From positions 124,001 to 188,000 of the forward strand of contig CP053449.1 in NCBI GenBank assembly GCA_013285465.1: a DNA stretch of 64,000 nt. Reading direction: 5' to 3'. Positions 1,209-15,211 of the stretch are shown piece by piece. The notes beneath the pieces are model-generated. The model was given only the letters and a program-made list of their open reading frames with translations. It did no database searches and was not told the origin of the DNA. A program made the position numbers and the translations under genes. The DNA comes from Pseudomonadota bacterium (GTDB taxonomy: Bacteria > Pseudomonadota > Alphaproteobacteria > Micavibrionales > CSBR16-224). Each line of letters starts with the position of its first letter. The stretch's first letter is position 1.

Positions 1209-3467
1209 ATGGCCTCACATGACCACGGCTCGACAAAAATGGCTGAAGATCATTCCCATTGTGCCCATCACGGTGACAATAAGCCTACCGATGACGCGCT
1301 CAAGCACGGTGGCAAATACGACAGGGTGCCGGAAGGGTTTGGTGGAACAGTTTATACCTGTCCCATGCACCCCGAAGTGCGTCAGCCTAAACCGGGGTCG
1401 TGTCCTATTTGTGGAATGGGCCTTGAAGCCGAAACGACTTCTGCTCGGGATGATGAGGAACCTAATCTGGAACTTGTGGATTTCGCTCGCCGTTTTTGGG
1501 TGGGGGCAGTTTTAACAATACCGCTCCTTATTTTATCAATGTCGCCTTTCGTTGGGTTTACTGCTATCCGTGAGTTTTTTGGGGAACGCATGACGCTCTG
1601 GATTGAATTTGCCTTGGGTACGCCCGTTATTGTCTGGTCGGGGTGGCCTTTTTTTGTGCGAGGCTTTCACTCTTTCCGCACTATGAAACTCAATATGTTT
1701 AGCCTGATTTCTATGGGTACGGGCGCAGCTTATATCTTCAGTATTTTTGCGGTTCTAATGCCTGATATTTTCCCTGATGGATTTCGTGATGCTGAAGGTC
1801 ATGTCGGGGTTTATTTTGAAGCTGCTGCTGTCATTATAACGCTTGTGTTGTTAGGCCAGATTATGGAGTTACGTGCTCGTGAGCGCACGGGGGCGGCGAT
1901 TAAGGCGTTACTGGATATGGCGGCTAAAACCGCCCGTGTGATCCGTGAAGACGGCACGGAAGAGGAAATTCCGCTTGAAGATGTGCTGGTTGGCGATAAG
2001 CTGCGTGTGCGCCCAGGTGATAAAGTGCCGGTGGATGGAAAAGTTCTTGAGGGCCGGTCTTCGGTTGATGAATCGATGATTTCCGGTGAACCGGTACCGG
2101 TTGAAAAAGTCTCCGGAGATACTGTGACCGGGGCCACGATCAATGGCACGGGCAGTTTGATTATTGAGGCGACACGGGTGGGCGCAGATACGACACTCTC
2201 ACAAATCGTTGAGATGGTCGCTAATGCACAAAGATCGCGCGCTCCGATCCAGAAATATGCCGATATGGTAGCCGGATATTTTGTGCCTGTGGTGATTCTT
2301 GTTGCTATTTTTGCCTTTATTGGCTGGGCTATCTGGGGTCCGGATCCGGCGCTGTCTTATGGTCTTGTTGCTGCCGTGGCGGTGTTGATTATCGCCTGTC
2401 CCTGCGCTCTTGGTCTGGCCACGCCGATGTCGATTATGACGGCGACAGGGCGCGGCGCACAGGCTGGTGTTTTGATTAAGAATGCCGAAGCTCTGGAGCG
2501 TTTTGAAAAGGTCGATATCTTGATTGTTGATAAGACGGGTACCCTCACTGAAGGAAAGCCTAAGCTGGTTGCGGTGCTGCCTGAAGAGGGGCATGATGAG
2601 GCCGAAGTTCTGCGTCTTGCGGCTTCACTTGAACGCGGATCAGAGCATCCGCTAGCTGAAGCTATCGTGAAAGGAGCAGAAGAGCGTGGCGTAGATATGG
2701 CGGATGCCACGGACTTTGAAGCTATCACAGGTAAAGGTGTTAAAGGCGTGGTTGATGGGCATGCAGTGGCACTCGGTAATTCTAAACTGATCGCTGATAT
2801 GGGGCTTGATAGCGGGGCACTGGTTGAGACTGCTAATGCACGGCGTGATGAGGGTGAAACGGTGATGTTTGTTGTTCTTGACAACGCTATTGCCGGGCTG
2901 GTCAGTGTGGCTGACCCCGTTAAGGAAACAACACCTGCGGCTTTGAAAGCGCTGCATGAGCTTGGTTTCCGGATTATCATGGCGACCGGTGATAATGAGC
3001 GCACGGCAAAGGCTGTGGCCGGACGGTTGGGGATTGATGAGATCCGCGCCGACGTTTTGCCGGAGGATAAAGCCCGGATTATCAAGGAACTTCAGGAGCA
3101 GGGTCTCAAAGTCGCGATGGCTGGGGATGGTGTCAATGATGCACCAGCCTTGGCGCAAGCCGATGTGGGCATTGCTATGGGTACTGGTGCGGATGTGGCG
3201 ATTGAAAGCGCAGGTTTTACCCTCATTAAAGGCAATCTTGACGGTATTGTCCGCGCCCGCCGCCTCGTGCGCGCTACCATGCGCAATATCCGTCAGAATC
3301 TGTTTTTTGCCTTGGTTTATAATGCCGCTGGTGTTCCGGTGGCGGCGGGGCTTTTGTTTCCGCTTTTTGGCATATTGATTAGTCCGATGTTTGCCGCCTT
3401 TGCTATGAGCGCATCATCGATTTCAGTTGTTTTGAATGCACTGCGCTTGCGGCGTGTAAAAATTTGA
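1209..3467 (+). CDS. copA: Copper-translocating P1B-type ATPase
   Basis: This 752-residue ATPase exports copper from the cytosol. After a His-rich N-terminus (residues 1-31) comes a heavy-metal-binding domain (YTCPMHPEV...CPICGMGLE, about 49-73) in place of the usual CxxC ferredoxin-like HMA domain. Eight transmembrane segments follow. The actuator loop carries SGEP, the metal-site helix has [11 protein letters not shown] (CPC), the phosphorylation motif is DKTGT, the nucleotide site includes SEHPLAEAI, and the hinge is [10 protein letters not shown]. The last helices hold YNAAG and MSASS, fitting Cu(I) P1B-1 enzymes. Length is normal. It sits 14 bases after the Cys-Cys peptide, so copper detoxification is the likely job of the operon. 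Confidence 0.95.
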
Positions 3468-3510: not shown

Positions 3511-3786
3511 ATGGATCAATTTTCTGGTGACATTGCAGCCATGCTAGAAATCGCACTGATCGGCGCCGGTCTGGTGGTTCTTTATTACGGGGGTAAAGAA
3601 GGCTCAAAGCTAATGAAGGCAGGTGCTTGTCTCATGCTGATCGGGGGCTTTTTGGGCCTTGCCTGTACTGGATATTGGTGGTTTAAATATCACAGCATAG
3701 GGGTTTTTGATAACCCGAGAGTTTCAACTGTCAATCTCGTGCACCATGATGGTGACACCAAGCATCATTTCTTTCCTAAAGAGTAA
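3511..3786 (+). CDS. Small two-helix membrane protein in copper/ion operon
   Basis: The 91-residue protein has two hydrophobic stretches (about residues 11-27 and 35-56) and a His-containing C-terminal tail (HHDGDTKHHFFPKE). I do not recognise the family. AGGAAGGAA lies ahead of the ATG at 3511, and its TAA overlaps the ATG of nhaA by one base, so translation is probably coupled to the antiporter. The tail histidines could bind metal as in the DUF2933 protein, but that is only inference from composition. Confidence 0.65.
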   Translation: MDQFSGDIAAMLEIALIGAGLVVLYYGGKEGSKLMKAGACLMLIGGFLGLACTGYWWFKYHSIGVFDNPRVSTVNLVHHDGDTKHHFFPKE

Positions 3787-4982
3787 TGAGAAATATGCAA
3801 AAGCGTACACGCCATTTTGCTGTCGCGGGTAAAATCGCTAGTGCCGATCAATGGGCTAGTCTTATGATGATTGGTGCGCTGGTTGTTGCTTTGTTCTGTG
3901 TTAATTCACCCCTGAAGCTAGCTTACGATATTTTTCACCACACGCCTGTTGCGATCAGTTTCGGAGATTTTGTTCTGCAAAAGCCGCTGGTGTTTTGGAT
4001 TAATGAAGGACTGATGGCACTTTTCTTTTTGGCCGTTACCCTTGAAATTAAGCGCGAGATTCTGGAAGGCCACTTCTCTGGCATGCGCCAAATACTCCTG
4101 CCCGCTTTTGCGGCTTTAGGTGGGATGGCAATTCCGGCGGCGTTTTATTTTTTGCTCAACCGAAATAGTCACGAGTGGATTCAAGGCTGGGCGATTCCAA
4201 CGGCTACCGATATTGCACTTAGTCTCGGCGTGCTGTCATTACTGGGCAAGCGTGTACCGATTGAGCTGAAGCTGTTTCTGGCCGCGCTGGCCATATTTGA
4301 TGATCTGGGCGGGATTCTGATTATTGCACTTTTCTATGGTAGTCACCTGACTGTGAGCGTTCTTCTTTTCTCACTACTTGGTATTGCTACTTTATTTGTA
4401 TTGAATCGCTTGGGTGTACCTCGTGCTTCGCTTTATGTCGTCATCGGCATCTTTTTATGGGCGACTTTTCAAGAATCCGGCATCCATCCGACTATGGCTG
4501 GTGTTGCAGTGGGGCTGGCTTTGCCTTTACGGCTTAAAAAGTCATGCACTCATATCCCTTTGCGCTTTGTTGAGGATGGTTTGCACCCGTGGGTAGCGTT
4601 TTTCGTTATACCGCTTTTTGCTTTTTTTAATGCTGGAATTATTATTAGCGATGTTACTCTGCATTATTTGGAATCATCGCTCTCACTCGGTATTATTGCC
4701 GGACTTGTTCTTGGAAAACCGCTTGGTATTTTTACCTTCGCGTGGCTTTCACATCTATTTGGTTTTGCCAGTTTGGCCCCTCACGTGAGTTGGCGGCATA
4801 TTTTTGGTGTGGCGTTACTTGGTGGGATAGGTTTTACCATGGCGTTGTTTTTAAACACACTGGCCTTTCCTGTTGGGGGTAATTCTGAGGTTGGCAGAAT
4901 AGCAATACTTTCTGGTTCTTTGATATCTGCCCTGGCCGGATATGTATGGTTATACTTCAGCTTGCCAAAATCTGAACATTAA
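3786..4982 (+). CDS. nhaA: Na+/H+ antiporter NhaA
   Basis: This 398-residue integral membrane protein matches NhaA in length and sequence. Recognisable parts are LMALFFLAVTLEIKRE, the ATDIALSLGVLSLLG segment carrying an Asp of the ion site, FDDLGGI with the adjacent Asp pair, and the C-terminal GGIGFTMALFLNTLAF. NhaA exchanges cytoplasmic Na+ for periplasmic H+ and is important at alkaline pH or high salt. The start overlaps the stop of the previous small gene. A second, unrelated Na+/H+ antiporter (NhaD type) lies at 32382-33806 in the core chromosome, so this one is an accessory copy on the island. Confidence 0.93.
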   Translation: MRNMQKRTRHFAVAGKIASADQWASLMMIGALVVALFCVNSPLKLAYDIFHHTPVAISFGDFVLQKPLVFWINEGLMALFFLAVTLEIKREILEGHFSGMRQILLPAFAALGGMAIPAAFYFLLNRNSHEWIQGWAIPTATDIALSLGVLSLLGKRVPIELKLFLAALAIFDDLGGILIIALFYGSHLTVSVLLFSLLGIATLFVLNRLGVPRASLYVVIGIFLWATFQESGIHPTMAGVAVGLALPLRLKKSCTHIPLRFVEDGLHPWVAFFVIPLFAFFNAGIIISDVTLHYLESSLSLGIIAGLVLGKPLGIFTFAWLSHLFGFASLAPHVSWRHIFGVALLGGIGFTMALFLNTLAFPVGGNSEVGRIAILSGSLISALAGYVWLYFSLPKSEH

Positions 4983-5005: not shown

Positions 5006-6373
5006 ATGAAACTGACATTTTTAGGTGCAACTAGTACGGTGACCGGTTCGAAATATCTTCTAGAAGCTGGTGGTAAGAAGATTATGATAGATTGTGGCCT
5101 GTTTCAAGGCCATAAGGAGCTGCGCCTGCGTAATTGGCAAGGATTCCCGGTCAACCCACGCGACATTGATGCGTTGATCTTAACTCATGCCCACCTGGAT
5201 CACAGCGGCTATATTCCCAAACTGACAAATGCTGGGTTTGAAGGGCCGATATACTGTTCCGAGGCCACGTTTGATTTATGCAAAATTTTGTTGCCCGATA
5301 GTGGTCATATTCAGGAAGATGACGCTGAACGCGCTAACCGCTATGGTTATACCAAACATAAACCAGCTTTGCCGCTTTACACGGAGCAAGAAGCCCGTGA
5401 GACATTTGAATATTTCAAACCTGTTGATTTTGGTAAGCCGTACAAGATTACAGATGAGCTTGAATTTACTTTGCATCATGCCGGACATATTTTGGGGGCA
5501 TCTTTTATTAGGGTTAGCGACAAAGGCGGTACATCCATCCTATTTTCTGGCGATATAGGCCGTCTTGACGATCCTGTAATGAAAGCGCCGGAAAAAATAG
5601 AAGATGCTGACTATATTGTTGTGGAATCAACATATGGTGACAGACTGCACGGGAAAAGTGATCCTACAGAAGATATTGAACGTGTCGTTCAGGAGACCAT
5701 TCAGAGAGGTGGTACGGTTGTGATCCCTGCTTTTGCAGTTGGTCGAGCACAAGCTATGATGTTCTACATTCACAAACTAAAAATCACTGGTCGTATACCA
5801 CGTAATCTGTCAGTTTTTCTTGATAGTCCTATGGCAATCAATGTGTCTGATTTGCTTTGTAAACATATAAATGATCACCGAATGCCCCCTAATTTTTGTA
5901 TGGATGTTTGTGGAGTTGCAACATACACGCGCTCTGTAGAGCAATCCAAAGCTATTAACAGTAAAAATAACAATATGCCGAAGATTGTTATTTCAGCTAG
6001 CGGTATGGCGACTGGGGGGCGTGTTCTTCACCATCTAAAGAATTATATTGGTGATGAGCGCAATACCATCCTTTTGGCTGGATTTCAGGCCGGAGGAACG
6101 CGTGGTGCTAGACTGGCTCGTGGAGAAAAGGAAATCAAAATCCATGGTCAACTTTTTCCAGTGCGGGCACAGATCGAGAAGCTCGATAACATGTCGGCGC
6201 ATGCCGATTATGCTGAAATTTTGTCGTGGATGGGTGGTTTTAAAAGCCCACCACGTAAGGTATTTGTTGTCCACGGCGAAGCGACAGCGGCGCGAAGTAT
6301 GAGAGATAAAATCGAAGAAAAATTTGGCTGGAACACAGAGGTTCCCGAATACCTACAAACGGAGGAATTATGA
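5006..6373 (+). CDS. MBL-fold/beta-CASP RNA-processing hydrolase
   Basis: The 455-residue protein has the metallo-beta-lactamase core motif THAHLDHSGY (HxHxDH, about residues 57-66), a downstream metal His in HHAGHILGAS, FSGDIGR with the metal Asp, the beta-CASP motif VESTYGDR, SASGMATGGR, and the terminal SAHAD and VVHGE of the RMMBL domain. Such proteins (CPSF73/YsiB-like) are zinc-dependent endo- or exoribonucleases. AAGGAG precedes the ATG. The stop overlaps the next start (ATGA), tying it to the AMP phosphorylase gene. Together with the phosphorylase and PRPP synthetase it may form an RNA/nucleotide recycling cassette, which is inference. Confidence 0.9.
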   Translation: MKLTFLGATSTVTGSKYLLEAGGKKIMIDCGLFQGHKELRLRNWQGFPVNPRDIDALILTHAHLDHSGYIPKLTNAGFEGPIYCSEATFDLCKILLPDSGHIQEDDAERANRYGYTKHKPALPLYTEQEARETFEYFKPVDFGKPYKITDELEFTLHHAGHILGASFIRVSDKGGTSILFSGDIGRLDDPVMKAPEKIEDADYIVVESTYGDRLHGKSDPTEDIERVVQETIQRGGTVVIPAFAVGRAQAMMFYIHKLKITGRIPRNLSVFLDSPMAINVSDLLCKHINDHRMPPNFCMDVCGVATYTRSVEQSKAINSKNNNMPKIVISASGMATGGRVLHHLKNYIGDERNTILLAGFQAGGTRGARLARGEKEIKIHGQLFPVRAQIEKLDNMSAHADYAEILSWMGGFKSPPRKVFVVHGEATAARSMRDKIEEKFGWNTEVPEYLQTEEL

Positions 6374-7887
6374 CGGACAGACCTAAGTCTATATTGAAGC
6401 TGCGGCGCCTTGGTATAGATACCTATAAGGAGGCCGTGATATATATGCGTGAGGATTGCCATGTTTGTCGTGCTGAAGGCTTTGAAGTACAGGCGCGGGT
6501 TAAAGTAACTCTAAACGGGGAATATTTGATCGCGACGTTGAATATGGTGACATCCGATATTTTGCAGCATGGCGAGGTCAGCTTGTCCGAATATGCTCTA
6601 CAAAAGCTTGAAGCCCGGGATGGGGATGAAATCCATGTTTCTCATCCTTCTCCCGTTCATTCTCTCAGCCATGTACGCTCTAAAATCTATGGTAATGCAT
6701 TGGGATCGGATCATTTGCGGTTGATTGTCAATGACATAGTTGCCGGTCGATATTCAGACATTCATGTGTCTTCTTTTTTAACCGCTTGTGCAGGCGGGCG
6801 ACTTAATGGGATGGAGGTCGTTCATTTAACCCGCGCTATGGTTGATAGTGGTGAGAAGCTGGATTGGGGCGGGAAACTGGTGGTGGATAAGCATTGCGTC
6901 GGCGGCTTGCCAGGAAACCGTACAACACCGATTGTGGTAGCAATTGTTGCAGCGCACGGGCTGACCATGCCAAAGACCTCATCGCGTGCTATAACTTCTC
7001 CGGCAGGAACGGCGGATACGATGGAAGTGCTGACCAATGTTAATCTTGATGTGGTAGCTATGCGCAAAGTAGTGGAGTTGGAAAATGGCTGTGTGGTCTG
7101 GGGTGGTTCAGTGTCTTTAAGCCCTGCAGATGATATTCTCATTCGCGTAGAAAAAGCTTTGGATCTCGATAGTGAAGGGCAACTTGTTGCGTCTATTCTG
7201 TCAAAAAAAATTGCTGCCGGATCTTCGCACGTTTTAATCGATATACCGGTAGGACCTACAGCTAAGATACGTTCTATAGAGATGGCCGCAGAACTTTCCC
7301 GTTACCTGGAACAAACAGGAGCAGAAATGGGGATAGGCGTGCGTGTGCATACAAGCGATGGCAGTCAGCCGATCGGGCGTGGCATTGGTCCCGCTTTGGA
7401 AGCGCGAGATCTTATAGCTGTGTTGAAGGGGGAAAAAGATGCTCCGGATGATTTACGACAACGGGCACTAGACTTGGCTGGATATATTCTAGAATTTTCA
7501 CCGGACGTTGAAAATGGACAAGGTCGAGCACTGGCTATGGCTCTTCTGGAAAACGGCAAGGCATGGGAAAAGTTTCAGGCAATTTGTGAGGCTCAGGGGG
7601 GTATGAAGGATATCCCGACCGCTGGATATACGCAGGTGATTGAATCGAATAGAGCAGGGCAGGTCATGGCTATTGATAACCGCCGTATCGCCCGTGTGGC
7701 AAAATTGGCCGGAGCTCCTGCGGATAGGGAGGCCGGTGTAGATCTCCATAGCCCGGTGGGCACAAAGGTTGAAAAAGGCCAACCGCTTTTTACCGTGCAT
7801 TCTAATGCGCCGGGGGAGCTTGATTACGCGTTGAGTTATCTTGAAGAACAGAATGGGATCATAGACATTCAAGGAGAAACATCATGA
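6370..7887 (+). CDS. AMP phosphorylase / archaeal-type thymidine phosphorylase
   Basis: The 505-residue protein has an extra N-terminal domain of about 90 residues before the nucleoside phosphorylase fold, as in archaeal AMP phosphorylase rather than the roughly 440-residue bacterial DeoA. The phosphate/nucleoside signature KHCVGGLPGNRTTPI (about residues 175-189) and the following TSSRAITSPAGTADTMEV are intact. Archaeal members convert AMP plus phosphate to adenine and ribose 1,5-bisphosphate. Bacterial members of this subgroup are less well studied. It overlaps by four bases both the upstream nuclease gene and the downstream PRPP synthetase gene, a strong sign of coupled translation and shared function. 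Confidence 0.88.
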   Translation: MTDRPKSILKLRRLGIDTYKEAVIYMREDCHVCRAEGFEVQARVKVTLNGEYLIATLNMVTSDILQHGEVSLSEYALQKLEARDGDEIHVSHPSPVHSLSHVRSKIYGNALGSDHLRLIVNDIVAGRYSDIHVSSFLTACAGGRLNGMEVVHLTRAMVDSGEKLDWGGKLVVDKHCVGGLPGNRTTPIVVAIVAAHGLTMPKTSSRAITSPAGTADTMEVLTNVNLDVVAMRKVVELENGCVVWGGSVSLSPADDILIRVEKALDLDSEGQLVASILSKKIAAGSSHVLIDIPVGPTAKIRSIEMAAELSRYLEQTGAEMGIGVRVHTSDGSQPIGRGIGPALEARDLIAVLKGEKDAPDDLRQRALDLAGYILEFSPDVENGQGRALAMALLENGKAWEKFQAICEAQGGMKDIPTAGYTQVIESNRAGQVMAIDNRRIARVAKLAGAPADREAGVDLHSPVGTKVEKGQPLFTVHSNAPGELDYALSYLEEQNGIIDIQGETS

Positions 7888-8768
7888 GTCTCTTATTTGC
7901 TTATCCGAAGAATGAAGAGCACGCTGTAGCGCTAGTCAAGGAGACCGGATATGAGCTGGGAGCAGTAAAAATCCACCATTTTCCGGATGGTGAAACTTTA
8001 GTGCGGCTGGAAACCGATGTAAAAGATAAAGATGTGATTTTATTTTGCAGTCTTGATCATCCTGACAGTAAAGCTATGACGCTCATGTTTATTGCGCAAA
8101 CTGCCAAAGAGCTGGGTGCAAAATCAGTGGGACTGATTGCGCCGTATCTTGGCTATATGCGTCAGGACAAGCGCTTTAATGAAGGAGAAGCGATCACTTC
8201 CAATATCTTTGCAGCTTTTTTATCGCGACATTTTGATAGCTTGATCACTGTTGACCCGCATCTTCACCGTCACAAGACTATGAAAGAAATATATACTATT
8301 CCGGCACAGGTGATCCACGCTGCCGACGCCATCGCGGGTTGGATTAAGGGCAATGTAGAGAAACCCGTTCTAATTGGCCCGGATGAAGAGAGTGAGCAAT
8401 GGGTGTCGGACGTGGCGGCGCGTGCAGATGTACCTTACACAGTTCTGACTAAGACGCGGCGCGGGGATAAGGAGGTAGAAGTTTCTGTGCCGGATGTTGA
8501 TCAATACAAGGCTCATACGCCTGTGCTCGTAGATGATATTATCTCTACCGCACACACTATGATAGCAACAGTGATTCATTTAAAAAGAGCTGGAATGAAT
8601 CCGCCAGTTTGTATTGGCGTGCATGCTGTCTTCTCGGGAGGTGGGTATGAAGCTCTGCAGAAGGCTGGCACCGCAAAAATAGTGACTTGCAATACAATCC
8701 CGCATCCCAGTAATGCGATTGACCTAAGTAGTCTACTTGCCGTGCATCTTCAGAATAAGAAAGTGTAA
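7884..8768 (+). CDS. Ribose-phosphate diphosphokinase (PRPP synthetase) family
   Basis: The 294-residue protein belongs to the PRPP synthetase family. It has HHFPDGE near residue 32, YMRQDKRF, VDPHLHRHK, a TKTRRGDKEV lysine/arginine strand and the phosphoribosyl-binding loop LVDDIISTAHT. It is slightly shorter than housekeeping Prs (about 310 residues) and resembles accessory archaeal-like homologs. The classic reaction is ribose 5-phosphate plus ATP to PRPP plus AMP. Next to an AMP phosphorylase it might regenerate PRPP from ribose derived from nucleotides, which is inference. The start overlaps the phosphorylase stop by four bases. Confidence 0.88.
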   Translation: MSLLFAYPKNEEHAVALVKETGYELGAVKIHHFPDGETLVRLETDVKDKDVILFCSLDHPDSKAMTLMFIAQTAKELGAKSVGLIAPYLGYMRQDKRFNEGEAITSNIFAAFLSRHFDSLITVDPHLHRHKTMKEIYTIPAQVIHAADAIAGWIKGNVEKPVLIGPDEESEQWVSDVAARADVPYTVLTKTRRGDKEVEVSVPDVDQYKAHTPVLVDDIISTAHTMIATVIHLKRAGMNPPVCIGVHAVFSGGGYEALQKAGTAKIVTCNTIPHPSNAIDLSSLLAVHLQNKKV

Positions 8769-8771
8769 GGT

Positions 8772-9458
8772 ATGTGCATGTCAGAACCTGTCAGTTTTGT
8801 GGCTGGTGGCATACTATTGGCAGGGGGCGCTTATGCGGCATGGAAAGCCTATAAAATTAACATGCGCTATTTTCCCGTTTCCATGATGCCGGTGTTGGCA
8901 GGCATTCAGCAAATGATGGAAGGGCATGTCTGGATGGGATTGACAAATGGTGATCCGAATATGGTCTGGTGGGGAGCGATGGGATTTATCTTTTTCTCAT
9001 GGCTTATGTGGCCCACCTGGATTCCTTTTGCTATTTACTTTCTGGAGCCGCCTGGTAGTAAACGAAAAAGAACACTTCTGATGTTTTCTTTTGCGGGGCT
9101 AGCATTAGGGCTGACATTATATATCCCACATTTAGCTAATCCCGATTGGGTCAAGGTAGCCATTAATAATCATTCAATAGCTTATGAGGATACGATGTTC
9201 CTCGATTATTTTATCCCGCGTGAGCTGACTTACGCAATTTATATGTTTCTGATCGTCACGCCTCCATTGATTTCGAGATATCTGCATATGCGGCTATTTG
9301 GATTGACCTTGATCATCGTTATCGCTGTGGTTTGGCTTTTCCTTTCCTATGCTTATATTTCGTTTTTCTGCCTGTTGGCAGGTGTGGCAACTATGCACCT
9401 GATCTATATCATCGTTCATAATAAATGTTGTCGAGAATGCCCTGAGCTGTTTCTTTAA
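8772..9458 (+). CDS. DUF6629 family membrane protein
   Basis: The 228-residue protein has about seven hydrophobic segments. The N-terminal pattern (MCMSEPVSFVAGGILLAGG) and the later GIQQMMEGHVWMGL match DUF6629 proteins, which are uncharacterised multi-pass membrane proteins. The ATG lies 3 bases after the PRPP synthetase stop, so it is probably the last gene of the long island operon. No catalytic motif is visible. It ends with a Cys-rich tail (NKCCREC). Nothing in the sequence reveals a substrate, and grouping it with ion or copper stress rests only on context. Confidence 0.7.
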   Translation: MCMSEPVSFVAGGILLAGGAYAAWKAYKINMRYFPVSMMPVLAGIQQMMEGHVWMGLTNGDPNMVWWGAMGFIFFSWLMWPTWIPFAIYFLEPPGSKRKRTLLMFSFAGLALGLTLYIPHLANPDWVKVAINNHSIAYEDTMFLDYFIPRELTYAIYMFLIVTPPLISRYLHMRLFGLTLIIVIAVVWLFLSYAYISFFCLLAGVATMHLIYIIVHNKCCRECPELFL

Positions 9459-9825: not shown

Positions 9826-10095
9826 ATGGACAAGCCGCAAGAGCCGGTTACATACAAGCGTAAATACGCCGACGGCGAAGAGGTTTCTTTTGTAGATCTG
9901 CGTGAGGCCTACCGGACAGCTGCGAGTCTGGTTGCGGATTTAGGCGACAACTATCTTCCCGTTTTTCAGCGTCTGGAGCAAGAGTTGCAAGAGCGGCAAC
10001 AGAAGGAAGCTGTGAAGGCTCGCGCTCTGGAAGTCGCGCGGAAGGAACGACAAAAGAATACCACTGGACTGCCTCCGCATCTCACAAAGTCATGA
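9826..10095 (+). CDS. Small charged hypothetical protein next to the island end
   Basis: An 89-residue frame runs from ATG 9826. A TTG at 9805 would add seven residues and lies nearer to an AGGAGGG site, so the start is uncertain. The N-terminal half reads like a small folded domain (YKRKYADGEEVSFVDLREAY). The second half is a Glu/Gln/Arg/Lys-rich helix, probably a coiled coil. No family is recognised. It is the last gene before the repeat-containing attachment zone, a place where mobile elements often keep excisionase or accessory DNA-binding genes. No helix-turn-helix can be claimed. Confidence 0.55.
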   Translation: MDKPQEPVTYKRKYADGEEVSFVDLREAYRTAASLVADLGDNYLPVFQRLEQELQERQQKEAVKARALEVARKERQKNTTGLPPHLTKS

Positions 10096-10158: not shown

Positions 10159-10190
10159 CGGTATACGTAACGGTATACACAACGGTATAC
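10159..10190. repeat. Three 12-bp-spaced CGGTATAC repeats
   Basis: CGGTATAC occurs at 10159-10166, 10171-10178 and 10183-10190, exactly 12 bases apart, and each copy contains the palindrome GTATAC. A degenerate relative (CCGTATAT) lies just upstream at 10149. The array is about 80 bases before a tRNA 3'-end remnant. Regularly spaced short repeats beside an attachment site resemble arm-type sites for an integrase or excisionase; that role is inference. Confidence 0.6.
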
Positions 10191-10268: not shown

Positions 10269-10288
10269 GAGTCCTCTTCTGGGCACCA
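10269..10288 (+). other. tRNA 3'-end remnant, putative attachment site (attR/attL)
   Basis: The 20 bases ending in CCA at 10286-10288 fit tRNA positions 57-76: purine-A of the T-loop, pyrimidine 60, invariant C61, five T-stem bases, a seven-base acceptor strand (TCTGGGC), discriminator A, then CCA. Nothing upstream can fold into the rest of a tRNA. A strong terminator begins two bases later, as behind a real tRNA gene. This is the expected footprint of an element that integrated into a tRNA gene, with the element on the left. The tRNA identity is uncertain. Confidence 0.6.
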
Positions 10289-10289
10289 C

Positions 10290-10331
10290 AAACAAAGAAA
10301 AAAGCCCCGTTGGGGGCTTTTTTCTTTGTTT
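10290..10331. terminator. Strong hairpin terminator with 19-bp perfect stem
   Basis: Left arm 10290-10308 and right arm 10313-10331 are perfectly complementary around a GTTG loop. The GC core is four pairs, flanked by A-rich and T-rich arms, so it can stop transcription in both directions. It follows the tRNA 3'-end remnant and was probably the tRNA gene's own terminator. Confidence 0.85.
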
Positions 10332-10345
10332 GTCACTGGAAACTT

Positions 10346-10382
10346 CGCGCAAACAAGCAGCTTTAGCTGCGCCGGTTGCGCG
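10346..10382. other. Nested hairpin between two terminators, possible structured RNA
   Basis: CGCGCAA (10346-10352) pairs with TTGCGCG (10376-10382). Inside it GCAGC (10357-10361) pairs with GCTGC (10366-10370) over a TTTA loop. The outer flanks (TCAC and GTGG) can extend the structure. It lies exactly between two terminator hairpins. No promoter is obvious, so transcription is not shown. Confidence 0.35.
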
Positions 10383-10400
10383 TTAGTTGGAAGTGGAGAC

Positions 10401-10428
10401 AAAAAGACCCCTTGAATGGGGTCTTTTT
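10401..10428. terminator. Hairpin terminator
   Basis: AAAAAGACCCC (10401-10411) and GGGGTCTTTTT (10418-10428) form an 11-bp perfect stem over a TTGAAT loop and run into further T residues on the plus strand. It works in either direction by appearance. It is the second terminator within 140 bases. Confidence 0.8.
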
Positions 10429-10490
10429 TCTTTATTCTGCCGCCAACCACCTTAAAATGAAATCTGTTGTTTTGTTTTCTTGTGGGGGAA

Positions 10491-10520
10491 GGATTAAATG
10501 TATTGTGTCCCGCTTTTTCC
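10491..10520 (-). repeat. Copy A of a roughly 30-bp repeat, inverted
   Basis: Read on the minus strand this is GGAAAAAGCGGGACACAATA followed by CATTTAATCC, matching the plus-strand copies at 11108-11140 and 11180-11210 apart from one substitution and a short gap. It lies just upstream of the orphan gene at 10551, while the other copies lie just downstream of it, in the opposite orientation. Confidence 0.7.
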
Positions 10521-10550
10521 AATCCACTTCAACGATTAAGGAGTTTAAAA

Positions 10551-11060
10551 ATGGACGAACTCCAAATGATAGATATGCTCGTTAATCAGGATTGGCAAAC
10601 CGTTCGTGCTACAAATCTGTATGAATCTTTAGGAAAGCGCTTTCTTCTTCATATTACCTTTGAAACACAAAAAGGTAATATCACATTAGCTGGCGAAGCA
10701 CATTCAGATAAAGAAGGGTATGACAATAGTTTTTCATTGAGTATTCCTGGATTACGCCCCAAACCTGAATGGGGGATTTCGTCTTCATCAAAAGATGTGT
10801 CGTGGGAAATAATAAATTTTAGCCAACAATGGAAAAATACACCTTTCGAAACCCTTATGAAGGCGCCTCGGGATGTCACATTTAGACATGATCCATTGAT
10901 TTATATTCGTCAATACCCATGTAAAACATTTCTTGATCATTTTGTGTCGATGGAGTTATTCAAAAAAACTGACGATGGAAGGACTGTTAAATTCATTATC
11001 ACGTCCTCTGACGAAGAGCCTTGTTGTGTAGAAATTGAAGAGACAATCGAGGAGAAGTAA
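10551..11060 (+). CDS. Hypothetical protein bracketed by inverted repeats
   Basis: The 169-residue protein has no signal peptide or membrane segment. ATG 10551 has a good AAGGAG site 9 bases upstream, which favours it over the ATG at 10467, whose extension would cross the repeat. Predicted strands alternate with acidic turns (FLLHITFETQKGNITLAGEA), suggesting a beta-rich fold, and the C-terminus is strongly acidic. No family is recognised. The base composition is AT-rich compared with core genes, and the gene is flanked by inverted copies of a 30-bp repeat, so it may have arrived as a small cassette. Confidence 0.65.
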   Translation: MDELQMIDMLVNQDWQTVRATNLYESLGKRFLLHITFETQKGNITLAGEAHSDKEGYDNSFSLSIPGLRPKPEWGISSSSKDVSWEIINFSQQWKNTPFETLMKAPRDVTFRHDPLIYIRQYPCKTFLDHFVSMELFKKTDDGRTVKFIITSSDEEPCCVEIEETIEEK

Positions 11061-11652
11061 AGGGGTCAGATTAGATTGAAAATCCGGCCTTATTGGAAAA
11101 AAGTGTGGAAAAAAGTGGGACACGATACAATTAATTCCCTGACGGGAATCCCGAATGCAACCCCGCTTTGTGCCTGTGTGGAAAAAGCGGGACACGATAC
11201 AATTAATTCCCTCGCGAGAATCCCAAACTTTGTCACAAAGCGGTGGGTTTTTAATGCGTTACCATGCGGGTCAGGAGGATGAGAAGAAACAGGATCAGAA
11301 TAATGATTTGAAGCCTTGTTGCGATTTTATCCCATTTTTTTTGCTCTTTTATATTATCGTTCCTTTTATTCACGCGCCCTCCTTGAAAAACATAGATAAA
11401 CAGCCGCATAGCTTTGCGCTGCGGTACGGGTTTTTATCTATAAAAGGGGCGGCGGGCGGGAGCTGCTATAAGCCAGGATATTTTCAAGGACATCAAACAT
11501 ATTCCGCAGGCTAACACAGGTCATAGGCGGATGCAAAAAATCCGGCTTTCCGGTTTGCTTTTACCGCGCGGGCTTTGCCGGATTGACTCCGGCAAGGCTA
11601 CGCATTAGGCTCATAGCCTTACATATTGCAGAAAATAAAAGGAAGATTGCGG
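11061..11652. other. 592-base intergenic region with repeats and hairpins
   Basis: No convincing gene; the short open frames here are repeat-derived. Besides repeat copies B and C, TAGATAAA (11393-11400) pairs with TTTATCTA (11433-11440) around a CCGCA/TGCGG inner stem. GCTTTGCCGGA (11572-11582) pairs with TCCGGCAAGGC (11588-11598) with one wobble. AGGCT/AGCCT make a further small hairpin at 11607-11619, just before the next gene. The hairpins could be terminators or REP-like units; no T-tract makes any of them a clear terminator. Confidence 0.45.
11103..11227 (+). repeat. Copies B and C of the roughly 30-bp repeat
   Basis: Two direct copies share GTGTGGAAAAA, then GGGACACGATACAATTAA and TTCCCT, followed by a GAGAATCCC/GGGAATCCC tail (11103-11153 and 11176-11227). 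A GGGGTCAGATTAG motif precedes them at 11062. Such GGGGTCAGA and GGGACACGATA blocks resemble sequences often seen near REP-associated tyrosine transposase genes, but no transposase is present here. They are probably remnants of a mobile or REP-like element. Confidence 0.65.
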
Positions 11653-12219
11653 ATGCCATGGACGATTGAGGCAAAGGTGCAGCCTTTTGCGGGTTTTGCC
11701 GGTCATTTATATCTGGATATTTTTGACGATGCGGGAAAGCGCGTTGTGCAGATCAACGGTTTTTCCTTTTGCGACAAGACAAAGAAAATTACGCCGATCG
11801 GCACGCCGCAAGATAAATTAAAAGCCTATGTGACGAATAAGGTTGTTCTGGCTGAAACATCCGGGCTTGACCGTGACCATCAGCCCTATGACGGGCATGT
11901 TATTTTCTCCGGCACGAAGGAGGAGGTGCTGGAGGTGATCGACCGGCTGAAAGAACTGGCGGAGGAATTTAACGCCAAAGATTTTCTCTATCGCGTCTTT
12001 TCCTTTAACAGCAATACGGTTTTTTCGGCGATGGTGCATAAAATCTCCCAGATTGTGCCTGTCGATATGGAGGCCGTTGATAAAACAATCGCCCTTAAAA
12101 AGATTACGCCCGGCGTGAAGCGTAAGCTGATGCGCAATAAGACCAGCCTGACGGAGGTTTTTAATAAGGGTAAAAAATCCCGCGGCACAAAGCCGAAACC
12201 GCCGAAGCCGACACCTTAA
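11653..12219 (+). CDS. Hypothetical protein with basic Pro-rich tail
   Basis: The 188-residue protein starts at ATG 11653, chosen because GGAAG lies 7 bases upstream; an ATG at 11626 lacks such a site. The first 120 residues look like a mixed alpha/beta domain (KVQPFAGFAGHLYLDIFDDAG, then an acidic helix EEVLEVIDRLKELAEEF). The C-terminal 40 residues are Lys/Arg-rich and end in a Pro-Lys run, as in nucleic-acid-binding tails. No signal peptide is present. No family is recognised and no function is claimed. Confidence 0.65.
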   Translation: MPWTIEAKVQPFAGFAGHLYLDIFDDAGKRVVQINGFSFCDKTKKITPIGTPQDKLKAYVTNKVVLAETSGLDRDHQPYDGHVIFSGTKEEVLEVIDRLKELAEEFNAKDFLYRVFSFNSNTVFSAMVHKISQIVPVDMEAVDKTIALKKITPGVKRKLMRNKTSLTEVFNKGKKSRGTKPKPPKPTP

Positions 12220-12225
12220 AACAAG

Positions 12226-12981
12226 TCATATCCCGTAAGCGCGGCTGAGGAGGAAACCGACGGCATAGGCAAGTCCTGCCGCCGCGCCGCCTGTCAGCAG
12301 GGTTTCGATTCCTGCGCGGAGGCGCGGGCGCTGCATGGCTTGCCCTTTTAAGACGCCGATGGTGAAAAAAGCGCAAAGGGTAAGAACTGCACTGGCGGAG
12401 GCCGCTTGTACAAGCGGCAGCGCGGTTAGGAAAAACGGCAGCAGCGGTACCAGCCCGACCAGTAGAAACATAGCGAATGTGACAAAGGCGGCGGTGGCGG
12501 GTTTCGGCACGCTGACGGGCAGGCCGTGTTCCTCCACCAGCATGGTGTCGATCCAGCGGTTTTCATCCGCCGTGATGGTGGCGACGATTTTTTCCAGTAT
12601 ATCGCCTGTGAAGCCCTTGTTTTTGAAGATGCGGCGGATTTCCTCGCGTTCGCCTTCGGGGACGGTCGCGATATGATGGGCTTCCTCCCGCCGCGTTTTT
12701 TCGATGACTTCCTCGCGGCTTTTGGCGTTCTGGTAATTGCTGATGGCCATGCTGAAACCGTCGGCGACCAGATTGGCGCAGCCTAAAATGGCCACCACGA
12801 CAGGGTTAAACCCTGCGCCGACGCCGCCCGCGACAACGGCAAAAGTGGTGATGCAACCGTCAATGCCGCCCAGCACGGCATCGCCGACATAGCTGTGCTG
12901 CGGCGGGCTGCCGATGCGCTGTTTGACGGCGGCGGGGGTGTGGGAGGCCTCCAGATTTTCCTGTGTTTTGCCGTTGCTCAT
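12226..12981 (-). CDS. VIT1/CCC1 family metal transporter
   Basis: The 251-residue protein has the VIT1/CCC1 layout: an N-terminal helix pair with GDAVLGGIDGCITTFAVVAG (about residues 32-51), a second helix with NLVADGFSMAISNY, a charged cytosolic region (about 85-150) with the EE/EH clusters that form the metal-binding domain, and three C-terminal helices. Plant and yeast relatives move Fe2+ or Mn2+ into vacuoles; bacterial ones are thought to export these metals. It converges with the preceding orphan gene, the two stops being 6 bases apart. Confidence 0.88.
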   Translation of the reverse strand: MSNGKTQENLEASHTPAAVKQRIGSPPQHSYVGDAVLGGIDGCITTFAVVAGGVGAGFNPVVVAILGCANLVADGFSMAISNYQNAKSREEVIEKTRREEAHHIATVPEGEREEIRRIFKNKGFTGDILEKIVATITADENRWIDTMLVEEHGLPVSVPKPATAAFVTFAMFLLVGLVPLLPFFLTALPLVQAASASAVLTLCAFFTIGVLKGQAMQRPRLRAGIETLLTGGAAAGLAYAVGFLLSRAYGI

Positions 12982-13095
12982 TTTTCTGCCCGTATCTTTT
13001 TCAGGGATGGACGGCTATTTCTTGGAATTTCCGTCAATTTATATTATATATAATAGTCCGGCTTTACACGAAAGAAACAGGTTTAGACCCGCCAT

Positions 13096-14187
13096 ATGTT
13101 TGCCGCCCTTATCGGTTTTTTGTCTATTTCGATTATTTTCTCCTTCCTCTGCTCCCTTTGGGAGGCGGTGTTGCTGAGTATTTCGCCCTCCTATATGCAG
13201 ATCAAGCTGAATGAAGGCGGGAAAGTCGGCGCGATTTTGCAGAATTTCAAAAACAATATCGACCGCCCGCTGGCGGGGATTTTGACGCTGAACACGATTG
13301 CCCATACGGTCGGCGCGATCGGGGTGGGGCAGCAGGCAACGAAAATCTGGGCGGACAGCAATCCGATGATTACGGGTTTTGTTGTGCCGGCACTGATGAC
13401 GGCGGCGATTCTGATTTTCTCCGAAATTATCCCGAAAACCATCGGGGCGACGAATTGGAAGCTGTTTGCGCCCTTTACCGTGCGCTGTCTGGATATTGTT
13501 TTGAAAATTCTGGCGCCTGTGATCTGGCTTTGTCAGGGAATTACCAAGCTGTTTAATAAAGGCGAGAAAGAGAGCATCTTCTCCCGCACCGATTTTCTGG
13601 CGCTGGCGCAGATCGGCTCGGAAGAAGGGCATCTGGACGAAACGGAAACAAATTTCATCCATAATCTGCTGCATTTCCGCAAATATAAAGTGCGCGACGT
13701 GATGACGCCGCGCGTTGTCGTGGTTTCCGCCCCGCAAACAATGACGGCGCGGGAGTTTTACGATTTTCAGGAGGATCTGACCTTCAGCCGTATCCCCTTG
13801 CGTGAAAATGCGGAAACGGAAACCATCATCGGCTATGTGCTGAAAGATGATGTGCTGGAACATCTGATCGACAGCGAGGAAGATGCGCCTTTGGAAAAAT
13901 TCCGGCGCGATATTATTACCGTGCCGGAGGGCTATACGCTGTTCCAGATTTTCGGCGATTTTATCGAAAAGCGCGAACATATCGCGCTGGTGATTGATGA
14001 ATATGGCGGTGTCTCCGGCATTGTGACGATGGAGGATGTCGTCGAAACCCTGCTGGGCGCGGAAATTGTCGATGAAACCGACAAGGCCATTGATATGCAG
14101 GCGATGGCAAAACGGCAATGGAAAAAACGCAATCAGGATAGTGCGGGGCTTATTTCTGCGGAGGAGAAGCTTGCCGAGAAAAAATAG
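13096..14187 (+). CDS. CNNM/CorC-type DUF21-CBS membrane protein
   Basis: The 363-residue protein begins with a DUF21 membrane domain of about four helices (residues 1-165; SEIIPKTIGA is the family signature). It continues with a paired CBS domain: RDVMTPRVVVVSA (about 200-212) opens CBS1, and YGGVSGIVTMEDVVETLLGAEIVDE marks CBS2. It lacks the C-terminal CorC_HlyC domain usual in longer relatives and ends in a short charged tail. CNNM-family proteins are linked to Mg2+/Co2+ efflux or its control, with CBS domains sensing ATP-Mg. A palindromic hairpin follows the stop. Confidence 0.88.
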   Translation: MFAALIGFLSISIIFSFLCSLWEAVLLSISPSYMQIKLNEGGKVGAILQNFKNNIDRPLAGILTLNTIAHTVGAIGVGQQATKIWADSNPMITGFVVPALMTAAILIFSEIIPKTIGATNWKLFAPFTVRCLDIVLKILAPVIWLCQGITKLFNKGEKESIFSRTDFLALAQIGSEEGHLDETETNFIHNLLHFRKYKVRDVMTPRVVVVSAPQTMTAREFYDFQEDLTFSRIPLRENAETETIIGYVLKDDVLEHLIDSEEDAPLEKFRRDIITVPEGYTLFQIFGDFIEKREHIALVIDEYGGVSGIVTMEDVVETLLGAEIVDETDKAIDMQAMAKRQWKKRNQDSAGLISAEEKLAEKK

Positions 14188-14200
14188 TGTTTATTACGCT

Positions 14201-14224
14201 GGAGGCGACCGATCGGTCGCCTCC
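14201..14224. terminator. 24-base perfect palindrome downstream of the CBS protein gene
   Basis: GGAGGCGACCGATCGGTCGC followed by CTCC is a perfect 24-base palindrome 13 bases after the stop at 14187. It could fold into a very stable GC-rich hairpin between two convergent genes. There is no clear T-tract, so either termination or another structural role is possible. Confidence 0.6.
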
Positions 14225-14250
14225 TTGAAGTTTAAAATATATATTTTATT

Positions 14251-14964
14251 TTATGCGGCGTACCTACTAGGTCTAATTTTTCGATCTAAGTATTCAATGG
14301 AACGTTGTTGCATGTTAAAATTTATACTGTGTGGCGCTGTGTTCTCTTTAAATTTAAAGCCTAAGTGTATTGCTGCAAAGACTAGACTGCCCGAACATAC
14401 ATATTTAGGTTCTGATACTTCTCCGTCTGGGTAAGTAAAGCTAAGCTTTTCTGCTATATGCTTCAGCTTGTAGCTACCGTATTTTGTAGTAATTGTTTTT
14501 GTCTTCGGAATTTCACTAACTAAGTGGCAAGAGCGTAGAAATTCTTCAACAGCAAAATCCAATAACATGTCATTACGCTCTCCCATAAAACGCTGTGTGT
14601 ATTCTTGCAGGGTTTCTTCTGGATGGTTTTGCGTATGAATGCCGATTCCTGATCGAGTTAACATGGGATATCTGTCCATGATGCGCCGAATAGCGGCCTT
14701 ACTTGCGGCAAGGTAAAGTGGCTTTGCAGTAGGATGAAAGTCTTTGCCATTTAGGTAATTTCTAAAATCCTTCCAGCTTACAATAGTTTCGAAAGAAGAA
14801 TGTTGATTAGTTGCAGCACGCAATGCGGCATTTGTTTGAAAACCTAGTGCGCGTGCCAGTGCTTCTATACGATGGGATGATTTAATTGCGGGGAGGGTTT
14901 TCCTCAGATCAGCTTTCATCGATTCGATAGTGGCTGAGTCAACAAAGATAGGTAAAGTGAACAT
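14251..14964 (-). CDS. AT-rich orphan protein, hypothetical
   Basis: The 237-residue protein starts at the ATG at 14964 (MFTLPIF), which has AAAGGA upstream at normal spacing; an ATG at 14997 would add 11 residues but has no such site and would overlap an inverted repeat. A helical segment with SSHRIEALARALGFQTNAAL (about residues 28-47) resembles N-terminal motifs of uncharacterised plasmid and mobile-element proteins. No catalytic motif is recognised. Base composition is AT-richer than the flanking core genes, so the gene is probably acquired. Confidence 0.6.
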   Translation of the reverse strand: MFTLPIFVDSATIESMKADLRKTLPAIKSSHRIEALARALGFQTNAALRAATNQHSSFETIVSWKDFRNYLNGKDFHPTAKPLYLAASKAAIRRIMDRYPMLTRSGIGIHTQNHPEETLQEYTQRFMGERNDMLLDFAVEEFLRSCHLVSEIPKTKTITTKYGSYKLKHIAEKLSFTYPDGEVSEPKYVCSGSLVFAAIHLGFKFKENTAPHSINFNMQQRSIEYLDRKIRPSRYAA

Positions 14965-14983
14965 AGATATGTCCTTTCTATAA

Positions 14984-15014
14984 GAGTTATAGTCCATCGA
15001 TTACGCTATAACTC
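14984..15014. promoter_or_regulatory. Inverted repeat upstream of the orphan gene, possible operator
   Basis: GAGTTATAG (14984-14992) and CTATAACTC (15006-15014) are exact inverted 9-base arms separated by 13 bases. They lie 20-50 bases upstream of the chosen start at 14964. Arms of this size, centred about two helical turns apart, suit a dimeric repressor site, which is inference. Confidence 0.4.
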
Positions 15015-15166
15015 ATTGAAAGAGCATAACTATTGCAAGAGAAATAATTCAGGACGTTTGACACGATGGTAAGTCGGAGGTGTCCTACACCCAATAAAAC
15101 TTTATTATGGTGACAGAATATTTGTCAAGTTTGTATATTTCTATGGTGTGGGTAGTAGGAATAAAA

Positions 15167-15190
15167 AGAGGCGGCGCGAGGCCGCCTCTT
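15167..15190. terminator. Terminator of clpB
   Basis: AAGAGGCGGC and GCCGCCTCTT form a 10-bp stem around a short loop. Read on the minus strand it is followed by TTTTTAT, the expected place and direction for termination after clpB, whose stop is at 15212. Confidence 0.8.
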
Positions 15191-15211
15191 CTTGTTGGAG
15201 TTTTGTTTTGC

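Follow-up and report, generated by a model that had tools for sequence, protein, structure and literature searches.

An orphan tRNA 3' end marks the far border of a metal-resistance island inserted in a leucine tRNA gene

Results

Identification of the island border

The window, i.e. the whole stretch of 64,000 bp that was analyzed (C1:124001-188000 of genome G000, a single contig of 2,673,443 bp, or 2.67 Mb), contains at positions 10269-10288 an orphan tRNA 3' end. We confirm that the element to its left is a metal-resistance island inserted in a leucine tRNA gene, and that this stub is its far end. The stub is almost certainly the attR of a 42.6-kb island, a putative integrative and mobilizable element (IME), integrated in tRNA-Leu(CAG) by a tyrosine integrase. 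The first-pass annotation had read it as the far end of a tRNA-integrated element. This reading is supported by the presence of an intact tRNA, an integrase, arm-type repeats at both ends and, on the right, the native trailer of the tRNA.

10269-10288, forward strand: attR core, the orphan 3' end (positions 57-76) of tRNA-Leu(CAG); exact 20-bp match, two sites in the genome
1-10268, no strand: rightmost 10.3 kb of the island, which measures 42,595 bp and otherwise lies left of the window; assigned from genome coordinates and gene content

As originally annotated, the forward-strand sequence GAGTCCTCTTCTGGGCACCA at 10269-10288 corresponds to tRNA positions 57-76, including C61 and the terminal CCA. 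It has a single site in the window even when up to 3 mismatches are tolerated (0 sites expected in shuffles). The claim that no tRNA body precedes it also holds, because ARAGORN identifies zero tRNAs in the entire window. In the whole genome, searched with up to 2 mismatches, the sequence occurs twice (C1:91674-91693 and C1:134269-134288), both times exactly and in the same orientation. An intact tRNA-Leu(CAG) (C1:91607-91693), located 42,595 bp to the left of the stub, ends in the left copy. Identity between the two sites is confined to the 20 bases and is lost at either end. A tyrosine integrase gene starts 170 bp past tRNA-Leu(CAG), so that both the intact tRNA and the integrase are present on the side where the first-pass annotation had suggested looking for them. 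Genomes contain isolated tRNA fragments, and the 20 bases might be such a chance or retro-copied piece, unrelated to any element. This is exceedingly improbable, because an intact tRNA beside an integrase, at a distance of 42.6 kb, ends in exactly the same bases, arm repeats occur at both ends and the native trailer is on the right.

The island spans C1:91694-134288 (42,595 bp) and has a GC content of 46.6%, compared with 52.0% in the left flank and 52.8% in window positions 15212-64000. The proposed contrast in composition between the two sides therefore holds, although 10289-15211, immediately right of the stub, is also low (47.0%).

Gene content of the island

The island integrase (C1:91864-93180) has PF20172 (DUF6538, E=5.6e-14) and PF00589 (Phage_integrase, E=1.3e-6) domains. 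Four of its residues (R295, R386, H409 and Y416) are invariant across six homologues and are read as putative catalytic residues; structure prediction gave a poor model. The integrase is followed by an HTH/M78 antitoxin-like protein and a HigB-like toxin (HigBA). Also following it are ArdC, Fic and a SocA-like antitoxin, the partner of which is weakly SocB-like. There is a MobA/VirD2-type relaxase (PF03432, E=3e-12), homologues of which occur on plasmids, some of them mobilizable, and a MobC protein (PF05713, E=6.8e-6). The next block encodes a MerT-like protein and two outer-membrane/fusion/RND sets with pumps that match CusA/CzcA. It also encodes a sigma factor, a cation-efflux protein and a regulator of the MerR family, for which the metal is uncertain. 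The cargo genes within the window are as follows.

1209-3467, forward strand: heavy-metal (CopA-type) P-type ATPase (Pfam E1-E2_ATPase/HMBD, TIGR01511)
3786-4982, forward strand: Na+/H+ antiporter, NhaA (PF06965)
5006-6373, forward strand: metallo-beta-lactamase/beta-CASP RNase-like protein (PF10996, PF07521, PF00753)
6370-7887, forward strand: thymidine/AMP phosphorylase family protein (NF003338, TIGR02645)
7884-8768, forward strand: ribose-phosphate pyrophosphokinase-like (PRPP-synthetase-like) protein (PF13793, PF00156)
8772-9458, forward strand: DUF6629 protein (PF20334)

Judging from these families, the cargo consists of heavy-metal efflux functions, with copper as the probable metal, plus ion and nucleotide functions.

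No type IV secretion, mating-pair-formation or phage structural families were detected among the scanned island proteins, a set that leaves out several small ORFs. Because MobC and a MobA/VirD2-type relaxase are present and a type IV secretion system is not, the island is most likely an IME. On the basis of its genes, and under the definition given in PMC5704250, we consider it a putative integrative and mobilizable element, which may be mobilized and transferred, and may still be capable of excision. Other tRNA-integrated elements with tyrosine integrases include integrative and conjugative elements (ICEs) and prophages (PMC5704250), and this island does have a relaxase. Nevertheless, that this island is an ICE or a prophage is very unlikely in view of the families missing from the scanned proteins, and of a search of viral contigs that found no relative of the integrase.

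Arm-type repeats and the integrase family

Two further features lie close to the right border.

10160-10190, forward strand: three GGTATAC sites repeating every 12 bp, candidate arm-type sites for the integrase at the right end; 0 mismatches
9826-10095, forward strand: conserved right-end ORF of 89 aa; related ORFs occupy right ends of G002 and G003

A counterpart of the GGTATAC triplet is present at the left end (C1:91796-91826), with 1 mismatch over the 21 specified bases, as against 0 for the right triplet (C1:134160). When 104 kb were scanned, the only strong triplets were those at the two island ends, all others being shifted or reverse-strand reads of these two. The triplets are likely arm sites of the integrase, to which its N-terminal domain might bind. 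The left triplet is just upstream of the integrase start and might therefore have a double role as an operator.

Five more full-length integrases, 66-84% identical and from the same taxonomic family, are each found just downstream of a tRNA: tRNA-Phe in both G002 and G003, tRNA-Leu-CAA in G006, tRNA-Tyr in this genome and tRNA-Asn in G003. In a search of 55 genomes, the right-end ORF was found only in G000, G002, G003 and G006, the very genomes that have close integrases; G019 has distant, stop-containing integrases only. Because all four genomes belong to one taxonomic family, this co-occurrence is suggestive, not independent. We predicted that stubs of the tRNAs adjoining the integrases would terminate the right ends, and this was the case for 2/2 right ends in G003, on two contigs. 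There, an exact 24-bp stub of tRNA-Phe comes after the right-end ORF and GGTATAC repeats, and an exact 19-bp stub of tRNA-Asn comes after the right-end ORF and GGTGTAC repeats, a variant that is also found at the left end of the G003 tRNA-Asn integrase. Near the right-end ORFs of G002 contig C158 and G006 contig C153, neither stub nor repeats were found within the stretch examined.

The right-end ORF has no Pfam or NCBIfam match. Its relatives are ~80-90 aa long, share the motif YKRKY...GDxYLPxFxRL (L087-L091) and are predicted to be mostly helical. We considered whether it is a directionality factor, which is unsupported: the protein is predicted, with modest confidence, to form one long helix and has no convincing PDB match. 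Viral contigs produced three short partial matches to this ORF, and a plasmid collection produced only distant relatives of the integrase, with about 30% identity. The integrase beside tRNA-Tyr in this genome, its second DUF6538 integrase (C1:1741734-1743047), has degenerate TAGTATAC arm-like repeats. Neither a second 20-bp core copy nor a second right-end ORF was found for it in this genome, and the locus is possibly the remnant of another island. A literature search returned no mention of DUF6538 and no paper combining Micavibrionales with genomic islands.

The insertion site in related genomes

None of the relatives examined has an unoccupied, readable tRNA-Leu(CAG) that shares this flank, because both same-genus drafts (G001 and G002) break or carry related ends there. 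The G001 contig ends exactly at the CCA of tRNA-Leu(CAG), and in relatives farther away tRNA-Leu(CAG) is intact, but its flanks are unrelated to those here. Contig C14 of G001, which starts with ...GGCACCA and has a terminator of the same style, was evaluated as an empty site but rejected because its acceptor, TTCCGGCACCA, belongs to another tRNA. A same-genus DNA search with the right flank (10289-14200) yielded only terminators, hairpins and short dispersed repeats.

In G002, contig C105 aligns over ~720 bp with the right end found in the window; the alignment runs up to the CCA, beyond which the two genomes differ. Within this single contig (15682-15912), a right end, a 24-bp core and a left-end-like sequence are joined. 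After the core come 83 bp that are identical to the sequence after the intact tRNA-Leu of contig C21, giving an exact overlap of 107 bp in all between C105 and C21. Further downstream, C105 has one clear and one degraded arm site and no integrase. This junction could represent tandem islands, the joined site of an excised circle, or a mixture of strains. Since it combines a right end, the core and a left-end-like sequence, stacking may occur at tRNA-Leu(CAG). The same junction, devoid of integrase, and the accessory character of the DNA up to 15.2 kb would fit a history of accretion, with at least two islands stacked at one tRNA, or a decayed island that acquired its mobilization block and copper cargo separately. 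For the island described here we regard accretion as unlikely, because this genome has only two core copies and two arm triplets, exactly at the ends, and no internal junction is visible.

The DNA to the right of the stub

A tRNA-style terminator had been proposed downstream of the stub. It is present as a hairpin that starts directly after CCA, and it is the first of three elements.

10289-10332, forward strand: native tRNA-Leu(CAG) terminator, a 44-nt near-perfect hairpin directly after CCA; identified by sequence, with the same layout after intact tRNAs in G000, G001 and G002
10333-10399, forward strand: covarying ~67-nt hairpin unit of the tRNA-trailing family, TCACTG...AAGTG; identified by model R1/R2 matches, contexts and pair counts
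10405-10429, forward strand: second terminator-like hairpin; identified by sequence

Four units of the trailing hairpin have a common fold, with compensatory changes in 9/18 pairs, and single-sequence folding gives z-scores of -2.7 to -5.3. A covariance model identified 18 hairpin places in 55 relatives, and a search of 142 genomes of the order found the same six genomes. In the 18 distinct hairpin sequences, 96.8% of cells pair (26-47% in slid versions) and both-side changes affect 55 cells (13.7 in shuffles), although these pair counts lean toward structure because the alignment was fitted to the covariance model. At 11 of the 18 places an intact tRNA precedes the hairpin, with its CCA 44-46 nt away. 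One place comes after a tRNA end that a contig edge truncates, two come after the acceptor end of a tmRNA (in one case judged by similarity only), one is a second tandem copy, and two are without CCA. The last is the copy in the window, 44 nt after the CCA of the stub; the other five copies in this genome are all 45-46 nt after an intact tRNA. The tRNAs concerned are Leu-GAG, Leu-TAG, Met, Val, Arg, Ala and Phe (L104, L106-L121), and at each of them the trailing hairpin (~60-73 nt) comes after a near-perfect terminator-like hairpin. The DNA right of the stub is thus normal tRNA downstream DNA, which provides independent support for a tRNA split by insertion.

In the permuted tmRNA of G001 (L121 1248-1708), the covarying hairpin is found between the acceptor and coding pieces. 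Rfam matches at the terminator were dismissed as miRNA and leader hairpin look-alikes below gathering scores. No Rfam family matches the trailing hairpin, and a literature search found no description of it; this hairpin family appears to be undescribed.

Right of the tRNA trailer, 10440-15211 is accessory-like, with lower GC. It includes a CNNM/CorC-like gene, for which neither the genus nor the family has a close relative, and a 319-bp segment (14200-14518) that is 93% identical to a G002 contig end. Inverted copies of a GTATTGTGTCCCGCTTTTTCC-like repeat (10496-10522 and 11180-11208) surround an ORF at 10467-11060, and short GTATTGTGTCCCGCTTTTTCC-like matches are scattered across G000 and G002 in the manner of a dispersed palindromic repeat.

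Discussion

We propose that the integrase (DUF6538 N terminus, phage-integrase C terminus) recombined two sites, the tRNA gene's 3' end (attB) and a matching ~20-24 bp core carried by a circular element (attP); its N-terminal domain would contact the three GGTATAC repeats at each end. Because the element supplies a tRNA 3' end itself, tRNA-Leu(CAG) stays complete at the left junction (attL). The original 3' end was displaced, still joined to its native terminator and trailer, and thereby formed attR. With its MobC and relaxase, the island could then transfer via the conjugation machinery of a helper.

The island belongs to a familiar class of elements, to which it adds a clear new example; its family and the trailing hairpin are less ordinary. 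Our analysis establishes where exactly a metal-resistance island begins and ends in an alphaproteobacterial lineage that has been little studied. It also delineates a small family of islands in which closely related integrases have moved from one tRNA target to another. Because integrases this similar are found at different tRNAs, target specificity can be tested by comparing close relatives. In addition, following up the native trailer beside the stub revealed a hairpin family with strong covariation, associated with tRNA and tmRNA 3' ends. We think it probable, with some reserve, that two novelties are combined here. One is an undescribed family of ~60-73-nt hairpins positioned 44-46 nt after the CCA of several tRNAs and of the tmRNA acceptor piece within this family of bacteria, which may be a new structured RNA released from trailers or a hairpin recognized by a mobility enzyme that targets tRNA 3' ends. 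The other is a newly recognized island family, in which one integrase scaffold is used at at least five tRNA genes.

IMEs, including those integrated in the 3' ends of tRNA genes, have been defined in a review (PMC5704250). Like these, the island has a single tyrosine integrase at one end, an intact target tRNA, a core repeat inside the 8-60 bp range, its own relaxase and MobC with no type IV secretion genes found, and adaptive cargo. It differs in that no directionality factor is recognized, and that its integrase has a DUF6538 N terminus and, in the plasmid collection, only distant relatives that are about 30% identical. With tRNA-integrated heavy-metal islands it shares CusA/CzcA RND efflux, a copper-type P-ATPase, a MerR-type regulator and tRNA-derived direct repeats, whereas its host belongs to an alphaproteobacterial order whose representatives are MAGs (one of the relatives bears the name Micavibrio sp.), and the AMP phosphorylase-like, PRPP-synthetase-like and beta-CASP genes are extra. 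Finally, the integrase has the Pfam DUF6538 and Phage_integrase domains of other PF20172 tyrosine recombinases, but the subfamily to which it belongs (66-84% identical) is distinguished by its occurrence at five tRNA species and by GGTATAC-type tandem end repeats.
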